DNA from: an uncultured bacterium | Lineage (GTDB): Bacteria > Patescibacteriota > Saccharimonadia > Saccharimonadales > Saccharimonadaceae | Assembly: GCA_903866605.1 (NCBI GenBank) | Contig: CAIPOF010000019.1 | Coordinates: forward strand, 1-48,071 | Direction: 5' to 3' | DNA: 48,071 bases | Shown here: one piece after another, positions 16,467-47,093 of the stretch | How positions within the stretch are numbered: position 1 is the stretch's first letter | How the letters are laid out: each line of letters opens with the position of its first letter | Made by a program: the position numbers and the translations under genes | Notes under the pieces: model-generated | Told to the model about the DNA's origin: nothing | The model's input: the letters and a program-made list of their open reading frames with translations, nothing else | Database searches by the model: none

Positions 16467-18008
16467 TTATTTATATTCCCAAACAGATTGACTATCGCTG
16501 TCACGAAGAATTATTCCTGAGCCTAGAAGTTGGTTTCGTAATTCGTCAGCTTTGGCCCAATCTTTTTGATCACGAGCAGTATTTCTTTCGATAATTACAC
16601 GTTTGTTATCATCTGATATGTCAGGTGTTGATTCGATAAGTTGCAGTCCCAATAAATTGTCAATTGTCTCAATAATTTGCATTAAGGATTGCTGGTTAAC
16701 ATTTTTTAACTGCGTGCTTAATATATCGGAAAATGTATCATCAATGATTTTGAGAGCTTCGGGTGTGCCCAGATCATTATCTATGGCTTCAATGATTGCT
16801 TGTGGCGTCGCATATGAAGGTATAATTTTATTCGTTTGGTTCTTTTCTTCATCATTTTGAATAGTGTCATGCGTTTGATGACGAAAAGCCGCGATATTAC
16901 GCCAGTTGTGAAGACGGTTCTTGGCTGAGGTTAAGGCATCAAATGTAAAATTACCCTCGCTTTTGTAATGTCCCTGCAAAATAAACATACGAAAATCAAG
17001 TGGTGAAAAATTCTTTTCATGCAAATCACTGATTGTGTAGCCATTGCCCAGAGATTTACTAATTTTTGTCCCATCGACCTTCAAAAAATTATTATGGAGC
17101 CAATAATTGCTAAACCTAACACCGGTTGCAGCCTCGGATTGCGCAATTTCGTTAGTGTGGTGAACGGGTATATGGTCAATGCCACCAGTGTGAATATCAA
17201 GTGTATTCCCCAGTATATTCATGGCGATTGCAGAACATTCAAGATGCCAACCAGGAAAACCCATGGTTGGTAGATTATGGATTATAGATTTTGGATTATG
17301 GGGGTTAGGTTCAATTGAGCTATGAGATTGCAATTTGCTATAATCTATAATCGATAATCCATAATCTACTAGATCTCCTGGCGTTACCCACTCCATATCT
17401 CGTTTGGTGTCTGTTGGAGTAAACTTCCATAGTGCAAAATCACTTGAGTTTCGTTTTTCTGGGTTAAATTCAATCCTAGCACCGGCTCTTTGCGCATTTA
17501 TATCTATATGTGCAAAATCTGCATATGTTGGAAATTTTGATGTATCAAAATATATACCGTCATTAATTTGATAAGTATAGCCTTTATCTTTAAGCTTGCG
17601 AATTAAATTAATTTGATCAGGTATATAGTCAGTCGCCTTGGCAATATATTGGGGCTTAATCATACCAAATTTTTCCATGCCAATTATAAAATCATTTGTA
17701 TAAATTTTTGCAATTTCCCATGAGGTTTTACCTTCGCGTTTAGCTCCTTTTTCAAGCTTATCTTCGCCATCATCAGCATCACTAGTCAAATGTCCGACAT
17801 CGGTGATATTTATAACCCTTGTGATTTCGTAGTTATTTGCCATCAAAATCCTAACAAGCGTGTCCCAATATATATAACTTGCCCAATTTCCAATATGCAA
17901 ACTGTCGTAAACCGTCGGTCCGCAGGAATATATCAGGACTTTGTTAGTTGTTTGAGAGACAAACTCATCAACTCGACCAGTCAATGTGTTATGAAATTTT
18001 AGTGTCAT
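16467..18008 (-). CDS. cysS: Cysteinyl-tRNA synthetase with in-frame repeat-derived insertion
   Basis: YSCGPTVYDSLHIGNW, GFPGWHLECSAIAM, HTGGIDHIPVHHTNEIAQSEA, KISKSLGN. Confidence 0.95.
   Translation of the reverse strand: MTLKFHNTLTGRVDEFVSQTTNKVLIYSCGPTVYDSLHIGNWASYIYWDTLVRILMANNYEITRVINITDVGHLTSDADDGEDKLEKGAKREGKTSWEIAKIYTNDFIIGMEKFGMIKPQYIAKATDYIPDQINLIRKLKDKGYTYQINDGIYFDTSKFPTYADFAHIDINAQRAGARIEFNPEKRNSSDFALWKFTPTDTKRDMEWVTPGDLVDYGLSIIDYSKLQSHSSIEPNPHNPKSIIHNLPTMGFPGWHLECSAIAMNILGNTLDIHTGGIDHIPVHHTNEIAQSEAATGVRFSNYWLHNNFLKVDGTKISKSLGNGYTISDLHEKNFSPLDFRMFILQGHYKSEGNFTFDALTSAKNRLHNWRNIAAFRHQTHDTIQNDEEKNQTNKIIPSYATPQAIIEAIDNDLGTPEALKIIDDTFSDILSTQLKNVNQQSLMQIIETIDNLLGLQLIESTPDISDDNKRVIIERNTARDQKDWAKADELRNQLLGSGIILRDSDSQSVWEYK
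17271..17368. repeat. Heptamer inverted-repeat element (family 1) inside cysS
   Basis: Left arm TAGATTATGGATTATAGATTTTGGATTATGG and right arm CTATAATCTATAATCGATAATCCATAATCTA; arms about 27/31 complementary; period 7. Confidence 0.9.
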
Positions 18009-26395: not shown

Positions 26396-26412
26396 GGTTA
26401 AATCTCCTTTAG

Positions 26413-26500
26413 TAGATTTTAGATTTTAGATTTTGGATTATAGCATGAGGAGTCGGACTTAGCGTCTGAGATTCTTCAATAATCTATAATCCATAATCTA
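26413..26500. repeat. Heptamer inverted-repeat element (family 1), intergenic rplJ-rplL
   Basis: TAGATTTTAGATTTTAGATTTTGGATTATAG ... AATAATCTATAATCCATAATCTA; period 7 arms; shares TAGATTTTGGATTAT with the cysS and prepilin copies. Confidence 0.85.
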
Positions 26501-26530
26501 TTTTCTTCTGTTATTGAAATGGTTACAGAA

Positions 26531-27058: not shown

Positions 27059-27141
27059 AAAAATCCTTTCTTTGATTGATATTTTTTGTAAAGTTTCATC
27101 CGACCATATTGTAAATGTTCTAGACAGTTGCAAGACCAAAA

Positions 27142-27176
27142 TAAAAAAGTCTTTGGGCCTCGCACTGCCAAAGACT
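27142..27176 (-). promoter_or_regulatory. Attenuator terminator hairpin in the rplJL leader
   Basis: Minus strand AGTCTTTGG-cagtgcgaggc-CCAAAGACT followed by TTTTTTA, between promoter and rplJ start. Confidence 0.7.
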
Positions 27177-27273
27177 AAAATCGAAAAATGTATTGTATAC
27201 ACAATCCTAGGTAGTAAATTAAGTCGTTCGGTTATACTCACGACAGCTACTGTCTTTGGTAATGTCTGCAGGC

Positions 27274-27303
27274 AGTATAACAAATTTGTTCAGTCAATGT
27301 CAA
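27274..27303 (-). promoter_or_regulatory. Promoter for rplJ-rplL
   Basis: Minus strand TTGACA-N18-TATACT. Confidence 0.7.
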
Positions 27304-32438: not shown

Positions 32439-32527
32439 AGTAGGTGGTATATGGTAGGTGGTATATGGTAGGAGGTTATGCGCTGGCTTGAAGCTTGCCA
32501 ACTACTATCTACTATTTACTATCTACT
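32439..32527. repeat. Heptamer inverted-repeat element (family 2), upstream of rplK
   Basis: AGTAGGTGGTATATGGTAGGTGGTATATGGTAGG ... ACTACTATCTACTATTTACTATCTACT around TGGCTTGAAGCTTGCCA; period 7/14. Confidence 0.8.
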
Positions 32528-32556
32528 GCGACGTAGTCGCCTATGTAACTGGGGTA

Positions 32557-46046: not shown

Positions 46047-47093
46047 TCAATTACCTACACAGCGCACCGAAAACCCGTAGCCCTTGGCGCCCGCACTGCG
46101 GTACACCGTCGCGTAACCCGAGTTCAAGTAGCGCCCCCAAGCATTAGCGCTGGACTCCGAACTCGACCACAAGTGCGCGTCCGACAACAGACTGCCGAAG
46201 GACCCGTCAGTACTGCGGTAGCCGGCAAGCGGCATGCTTAGTCCTGAAGAACCAGCTGGTTTGAGTTGAGTGCCTTGGTCAGTCCCGCGCCAACCAGTAG
46301 CGTCGGCTGCTGCCTGAGTCATACCTAGTTGCATTTCTAGAGTTTTGTATTCAGCATCAGTTGGTATATGGCTGCCAACTGGACAAATGCCTTGCGCACC
46401 GGCGGTTATGACATATTGCATGGCTTCGTCCCATTGGTAAAGTCCTCCATAGGTTGTGCAGTTGGATTCAGTATTACCGTAACAGTATTTTTCTAATGTT
46501 GAATTGTTTGTTTGGGCTGTGACGCCTGTCACCATGGTACCGACATTTAGATTGGCTTTAGCCCAGACTTGGGTGCCGATAGCAAGCCAGTTAGTTGGGT
46601 CTGTGGCTACTAGTGAAGATATTGCTGTTGGTGATGAGTTATTGGTAATACTATAGACTGTACTGCTAGCTGTGTTTGTATTAGTTAATGTATATAGTGA
46701 ATTAGGACTTGCTAATAAATAGTCAAATCTATTCCCAGAGCTTGATTTAAGACAGTATTTAGTATCAGTTGTAGGAGTTGAGTCACGTGGGCATTTATTG
46801 GTATCAAGATCAACTGGATAAGCTCCATGGTCAATATAGTATAGGGCTATTTGTTTTTTGGCACTAGATAGATCAGACTGTAGGGCTGAGACAGTGGCTT
46901 TGGATGAGATGCCTGTGTAGGAGACTATGGTTATGGCGGCTAATACTCCTATTACTACTATGACTACTAGGAGTTCGACTATGGTGAAGGCTTTTTTGTA
47001 GATTATAGATTTTGGATTATCGATTATAGGAAATTTCATCCTGTTAGTAACTTTATTAATAAATGATAAATTCATATGTGTAAATACCCACAT
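46047..47093 (-). CDS. Type IV prepilin-like protein with C-terminal FISUMP/C-type-lectin-like domain, putative DGR target
   Basis: KKAFTIVELLVVIVVIGVLAAITIVSYTG; C-terminal LWSSSESSANAWGRYLNSGYATVYRSAGAKGYGFSVRCVGN; true start probably MKFPIIDNPKS. Confidence 0.85.
   Translation of the reverse strand: MWVFTHMNLSFINKVTNRMKFPIIDNPKSIIYKKAFTIVELLVVIVVIGVLAAITIVSYTGISSKATVSALQSDLSSAKKQIALYYIDHGAYPVDLDTNKCPRDSTPTTDTKYCLKSSSGNRFDYLLASPNSLYTLTNTNTASSTVYSITNNSSPTAISSLVATDPTNWLAIGTQVWAKANLNVGTMVTGVTAQTNNSTLEKYCYGNTESNCTTYGGLYQWDEAMQYVITAGAQGICPVGSHIPTDAEYKTLEMQLGMTQAAADATGWRGTDQGTQLKPAGSSGLSMPLAGYRSTDGSFGSLLSDAHLWSSSESSANAWGRYLNSGYATVYRSAGAKGYGFSVRCVGN
46050..46240 (-). other. Putative DGR variable region at the 3' end of the prepilin gene
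   Basis: A-poor, GC-rich stretch in an AT-rich gene; codons at predicted Asn positions are NNC/NNT (AGT, GGC, GAC, CAC, AGC, TAC, GCC). Confidence 0.6.
46999..47030. repeat. Single arm of heptamer family 1 in the prepilin leader-coding region
   Basis: TAGATTATAGATTTTGGATTATCGATTATAGG; shares TAGATTTTGGATTAT with the other copies. Confidence 0.85.

Follow-up and report, generated by a model that had tools for sequence, protein, structure and literature searches.

An in-frame, heptamer-armed palindromic repeat in the cysS gene of a Saccharibacteria genome

Introduction

Protein-coding palindromes are presented as unique to Rickettsia by Ogata et al. in the title of their 2002 paper (cited in PMC10969869). 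These Rickettsia palindromic elements (RPEs; Ogata et al. 2000, 2002, reviewed in PMC10969869) are short palindromes dispersed in a reduced genome. They lie in frame within housekeeping genes that are unrelated to one another, and the proteins are predicted to tolerate them. Repeats built of 7-nt units have been described elsewhere: the GGGAATC/GGGGAYT heptamers of Xanthomonas and Nostoc form G-quadruplexes and are under-represented on the coding strand of open reading frames (ORFs; PMC4692102), and the TAACTGA repeats of Beggiatoaceae lie mostly before start codons (PMC4679880). Here we describe a palindromic element that lies in frame within cysS, the cysteinyl-tRNA synthetase gene, on a 48,071-nt contig (CAIPOF010000019.1; its whole length is hereafter the window) of a Saccharibacteria draft genome (G000; 814 kb, 71 contigs). 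We consider it likely that this insert belongs to a non-autonomous hairpin repeat that has heptamer-built arms and is dispersed in the genome, that it was gained recently, is read through and is tolerated, and that the same process recurs in the genus.

Results

A palindromic element lies within cysS

The gene and the parts of the element are as follows:

16467..18008, minus strand: cysS, cysteinyl-tRNA synthetase, 513 aa, single copy in the genome, carrying the palindromic element in frame
17270..17369, no strand: palindromic element, about 100 nt, residues 214-246, stop-free solely in the cysS frame
17270..17299, plus strand: left arm, heptamer array GATTATG GATTATA GATTTTG GATTAT
17300..17339, no strand: hairpin loop, 40 nt, with nothing similar elsewhere in the fetched loci
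17340..17369, minus strand: right arm, reverse complement of the heptamer array

Two 30-nt arms, 90% complementary, enclose the 40-nt loop to give 100 nt in total, and the ORF runs through them uninterrupted. An initial annotation of the window had recognised this in-frame inverted repeat; the repeat stands, while its proposed 98-nt extent (17271-17368) is corrected at both ends, to 17270 and 17369. Compared with dinucleotide shuffles, the folding energy of the DNA at this site had a z of -5.2, with none of 200 shuffles equalling it, and z was -6.1 when the element was folded alone. Among the ungapped hairpins scoring at least 20 in 326 kb of sampled G000 sequence, it was the sole one inside an ORF. 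A search of Rfam gave no match at the element, and a known RNA family was dropped as a candidate on that account.

The protein scores above the TIGR00435 cut-off, and G000 has no other CysS match; its closest named relative, at 69% identity, is a record of Candidatus Saccharimonas, and CysS matches without an internal stop were found in all 28 genomes of our genus comparison set. The insertion point falls in the loop between MEW and GFPGWH, and the translation of the insert includes the peptide LQSHSSIEPNPHNPK. Relative to the nearest relatives the net gain is 27 aa (81 nt), and a few native CysS codons were therefore replaced or overwritten. Assembly error was set aside, as cysS has kept its open frame and inserts occupy the identical spot in several species.

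The heptamer arms recur across the genome

The arms are tandem arrays of the heptamer GATTATN, and the family recurs at about a dozen other sites in G000. A degenerate pattern of three arm units matched 38 times in this genome, against 7 matches for its reversed control. Moreover, the cysS arms are up to 94% identical over 32 nt to distant loci, with the variant heptamers in matching order. A GTAG start or a CTAC end is found on the majority of arms, though not on every one. Arrays of period 7 numbered 30 in the G000 sample, against 0-4 for periods 5, 6, 8, 10, 11 and 13, and samples from three relatives held 19, 14 and 1; over all four genomes, periods 5 and 6 gave none and periods 8, 10, 11 and 13 gave 0-5. 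The window itself holds 7 such arrays, compared with a shuffle mean of 0.1 and a maximum of 1. Several heptamer types occur side by side (GATTATN, GGTAGNN, GGAATAT, CCAATAG and GGGAAAT). The interior between paired arms spans ~10 to ~420 nt; comparison of the interiors of these heptad-armed copies (family A) revealed no conservation, and the idea of a conserved interior was dropped because they are dissimilar.

Three further features of this kind lie in the window:

26409..26509, no strand: second two-arm copy, intergenic, directly upstream of rplL, none of its six frames open
46995..47027, plus strand: single-arm copy in frame in a pilin-like ORF (46047-47093, minus strand), where it lies in the leader (NPKSIIY) just ahead of the AFTIVELL prepilin motif
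32445..32529, no strand: intergenic hairpin of another heptamer type (GGTATAT / CTACTAT)

The first two are the additional loci at which the repeat unit had initially been annotated, one with two arms and one with a single arm. The site upstream of rplL also holds a copy in another genome, G020 (locus L043). Across G000, whole or partial heptad copies lie in frame in cysS, tsaD, ychF, a TlyA-like methyltransferase gene and several pilin-like leaders before FTIVELL, with one arm only in ychF and the pilin cases; these in-gene copies have a PKS(I/L)I stretch in common.

Side observations at neighbouring sites are given here. Leader peptides of pilin-like proteins before the FTIVELL cleavage motif are encoded by several heptad-arm types in G000 and G020, at these loci:

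Pilin-leader heptad loci: window 46996-47027; L335 11207; L340 18739; L343 3484; L050; L051

Heptad arrays of different types adjoin an rnpA-like start in G000 (L334 4409-4442) and in G026 (L299 4743-4779), an intergenic site that appears as if occupied by different repeats. Upstream of the rplL region, the minus strand carries a ribosomal protein L10 leader (Rfam RF00557) at 27133-27277.

The reading frame is kept and the insert is predicted to be disordered

We examined the frames of nine two-arm copies, seven intergenic and two within genes. None of the 42 frames of the intergenic copies was free of stops. For the copies in cysS and tsaD, exactly one frame was open, and it was that of the gene itself. 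Where stops would be expected at the junctions of the cysS copy, the gene frame reads TCG for TAG and AAA for TAA. The inserts examined at CysS, TsaD, MnmA, Fpg and TatD likewise keep the frame and are stop-free. Because the frame is kept in genes while the intergenic copies are full of stops, the sequences argue for an open frame maintained by selection and hence for an insert that is translated rather than skipped.

The AlphaFold2 model of G000 CysS had a mean pLDDT (predicted local distance difference test) of 84 and a pTM (predicted template modelling score) of 0.85, and Foldseek matched it to structures of CysRS, 1u0b and 8qhp among them. Residues 218-244, between the strands 191-196 and 249-252, fell below a pLDDT of 50, and the zinc/active-site positions C29, C258, H283 and E287 were invariant in a 24-sequence alignment. 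In this model the element is a predicted floppy loop immediately before the zinc ligand C258, outside the folded core. As this is the sole CysS copy in the genome, the enzyme is probably functional with the insert. Among in-gene inserts of other species, most gave hairpin z values of -1 to -4, and no hairpin was scored for cysS of G012 or for tsaD of G002, G007 and G019; with these modest scores, the hairpin is well established for the G000 cysS element and less so for the others.

The insert is lineage-specific and inserts recur at identical loops

A CysS, TsaD and YchF tree, built with the insert columns left out, places G000 as sister to G014 and G019 (support 100/100), both of which have a CysS loop 27 residues shorter than that of G000. 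Other Saccharibacteria CysS carry a canonical 16-residue stretch, DMEWDSPWGKGFPGWH. The insert is thus lineage-specific, and the conservation across distant homologues, with unrelated sequence, that would have spoken against the initial annotation was not found, other Saccharibacteria CysS having the short canonical MEWDSPWGKGFPGWH. Within the genus the loop varies strongly in length and sequence, and long inserts require at least three changes on the tree; unrelated inserts occupy this spot in other species, those of G002 and G004 being dispersed hairpin repeats.

In TsaD, one shared loop is filled in G000, G002, G019, G022, G023 and G026 with heptamers that differ (GATTATA, GTAGATG, GCAAATG, GGAAATG, and GGAATAT in the sister pair G022/G023); G007 has a different insert, and the remaining genomes keep a short form, e.g., FLNEKAPEFP. 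The filled and empty states, which differ within the sister pairs G019/G014 and G002/G004, take a minimum of six changes to explain on the tree, and the approximately unbiased (AU) test rejected a single clade of five filled TsaD genes (p ~2e-50). In G026 the loops of both MnmA and Fpg hold inserts, and in G023 Fpg is filled twice; the survey that gave these cases favoured conserved genes. Together, the filled and empty sister species and the tree tests indicate repeated, independent gain of inserts in the genus.

Beyond the genus, heptad arrays were judged by a degenerate pattern alone: RGNWNWT repeated four times, which is suggestive only, occurs in 44 of the 294 genomes of the class and in 29 of its 128 genera, very unevenly, with a reversed control that was much lower in most genomes, but not in G000. 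A 141-nt strong hairpin also lies in frame at the CysS loop of another close relative (G309; L123, 2649-2789); it is a single copy there and is therefore not counted as a repeat.

A second hairpin family shares these sites

In G002 and G004 the CysS loop is occupied by a hairpin of an unrelated kind, family B, and G008 carries part of such a hairpin. Family B is not heptameric; it is dispersed, ~90 nt long, has conserved internal loops, CGGGTGGCG ... CGACAGGACCCG, and was found whole or in parts in 20 of the 28 genus genomes, in one case in frame in mnmA (G010). Its consensus fold shows covariation, with changes on both sides in 15 of its 27 pairs, and it had no match in Rfam. Possibly it is an undescribed structured RNA or mobile hairpin.

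Family B loci: L092, L093, L096, L097, L153-L181; G000:C38:4615-4711

Neither this second structured family, nor the heptamer build of the arms, nor the genus-wide recurrence at identical loops had featured in the initial annotation.

Discussion

Origin and fate of the insert

The observed position, open frame, dispersal, lineage specificity and recurrence of the element fit the following course of events. A hairpin repeat would have entered the MEW/GFPGWH loop of CysS after the G000 lineage split from its nearest sampled relatives, and would have been transcribed and translated along with cysS. Purifying selection would discard copies with a stop or the wrong length, so that the surviving copy would read through in its sole stop-free frame. 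The resulting disordered loop of ~33 residues would form outside the folded core and leave the enzyme its function, and we infer that the insert is translated in a working protein and that the element brings no benefit to the host. Elsewhere in the genus, other heptamer types and family B would repeatedly have followed the same course in the same permissive loops, those of CysS, TsaD, MnmA and Fpg. The repeat itself would spread at the DNA level as a hairpin-forming unit, by way of single-stranded DNA, template switching at replication or a transposase acting in trans.

Several points weigh against this account. Target-site duplications, a feature of miniature inverted-repeat transposable elements (MITEs), were looked for by eye in the loci read and none was clear. 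No dedicated transposase could be linked to the repeat, and the flanks of the Y1 transposase genes examined in G000 lack heptad arrays. The interiors of the copies are unconserved, so the moving unit could be the arm and not the whole hairpin. Lastly, independent insertion does not account for the residues ahead of the TsaD insert, which are LTE in five filled proteins (L211-L213, L232, L233) and LN in most empty ones. Horizontal transfer of a single filled tsaD was rejected since the filled genes form no clade; the LTE signature is left unaccounted for.

Other explanations have to be set beside a dispersed repeat. The 7-nt motif might have expanded locally by slippage in a fast-evolving CysS linker, template switching having made the inverted arm with no movement at all. 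The dominance of period 7 over the other periods would suit such an origin, as would the highly variable CysS loop, the unconserved interiors and the site in G013, which already resembles the element end (TTAGAT). However, independent events would not yield one heptamer family at about a dozen places, nor the long matches between cysS arms and distant loci with variant heptamers in order and mostly GTAG/CTAC ends, and some inserts at the CysS loop belong to the non-heptameric family B; we regard slippage as unlikely. Those same termini, and three PF01797 genes over the cut-off in G000, recall repetitive extragenic palindromes (REPs) with a GTAG tag, here moved by the genome's Y1 transposases as in REP-associated tyrosine transposase (RAYT) systems. 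Yet heptad arrays are missing beside the three RAYT-like genes of G000 and scarce in the other genomes that were checked, each single arm is an array of heptamers and not a short palindrome, and G012 (77% complete), in which no Y1 gene was matched, has a copy with two arms. A REP/RAYT system is accordingly improbable, and mobilisation by a neighbouring RAYT gene is unsupported, the repeat being absent from the Y1 flanks.

Two further explanations concern what becomes of the insert. A selected host role, e.g., pausing of translation at the hairpin or a CysS loop that serves regulation or binding, could be read into the filling of identical loops in tRNA-related enzymes (CysS, TsaD, MnmA) of several species, but the nearest relatives lack the insert, the inserts of different species are dissimilar, the loop is predicted to be disordered and a survey of conserved genes favours such finds; we give this role little credence. 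Mitochondrial byp hairpins are skipped by ribosomes, and a strong hairpin amid a conserved block invites the thought that the insert is missing from the mature protein through ribosome bypass or excision from the mRNA. Bypass would need neither the kept frame nor the lack of stops seen in the inserts of all five proteins, and comparable intergenic copies are full of stops, which makes this the faintest of prospects.

A broader reading, with rather less than an even chance in our view, is a genus-wide class of hairpins with 7-nt units that differ by species, spreading without a known transposase, repeatedly invading surface loops of essential enzymes and kept as translated protein. If true, this would be the first such bacterial case described outside Rickettsia, and the class may extend patchily across Saccharimonadia. 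A literature search found no account of such elements in Saccharibacteria, which is weak evidence given the limited collection searched. Coding palindromes in a phylum that is unrelated to Rickettsia and has reduced genomes, where identical loops are filled in one sister species and empty in the other, make two questions testable, namely by what route heptanucleotide hairpin repeats spread and to what extent repeats give rise to new protein segments. They also carry a warning that loop insertions in proteins of the Candidate Phyla Radiation (CPR) may derive from repeats and not from adaptation.

Comparison with known systems

The initial interpretation, an RPE-like in-frame palindromic repeat in a CPR genome, is supported by sisters without the insert, by dispersed copies and by a gene that is open and single-copy. 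Like RPEs, the G000 element is a dispersed palindrome of the ~100-150 nt class and is inserted in frame into unrelated genes (cysS, tsaD, ychF and pilin leaders). It differs from them in that its arms are 7-nt arrays, its intergenic copies have no open frame and its host belongs to another phylum, the comparison being one of features.

With the short tandemly repeated repetitive (STRR) heptanucleotide sequences of cyanobacteria and the hairpins of the Nostoc tRNA-Leu intron P6b (PMC2670836, PMC3488679), it has in common degenerate 7-nt tandem units that are dispersed and strongly variable in length, and complementary arrays that pair into a hairpin. The cases taken from these papers are intergenic or intronic, whereas G000 copies also lie in frame in essential genes; the host, moreover, is a member of the Saccharibacteria and not a cyanobacterium, and its units (GATTATN, GGAATAT, GGTAGNN and GGGAAAT) appear, on a coarse comparison, to differ from the known STRR units. 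The heptamers of Xanthomonas, Nostoc and Beggiatoaceae resemble it in being genome-wide and sometimes inverted, but recurrence in protein loops is not described there (PMC4692102, PMC4679880).

GTAG-tagged REPs (PMC3733652) share the GTAG terminus found on most G000 arms, and Y1 genes are present in the genome; a single G000 arm is a heptamer array, though, and not a palindrome as a REP unit is, and the RAYT-like genes are not flanked by the repeat. The coding palindromes of nematomorph mitochondria (PMC6649704) are likewise long inverted repeats within translated genes, but their arms encode conserved parts of proteins, whereas the G000 palindrome encodes a predicted disordered loop that is missing in relatives. 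Taken together, the element works like an RPE and is built like an STRR hairpin, and membership in neither group holds on all tested features.
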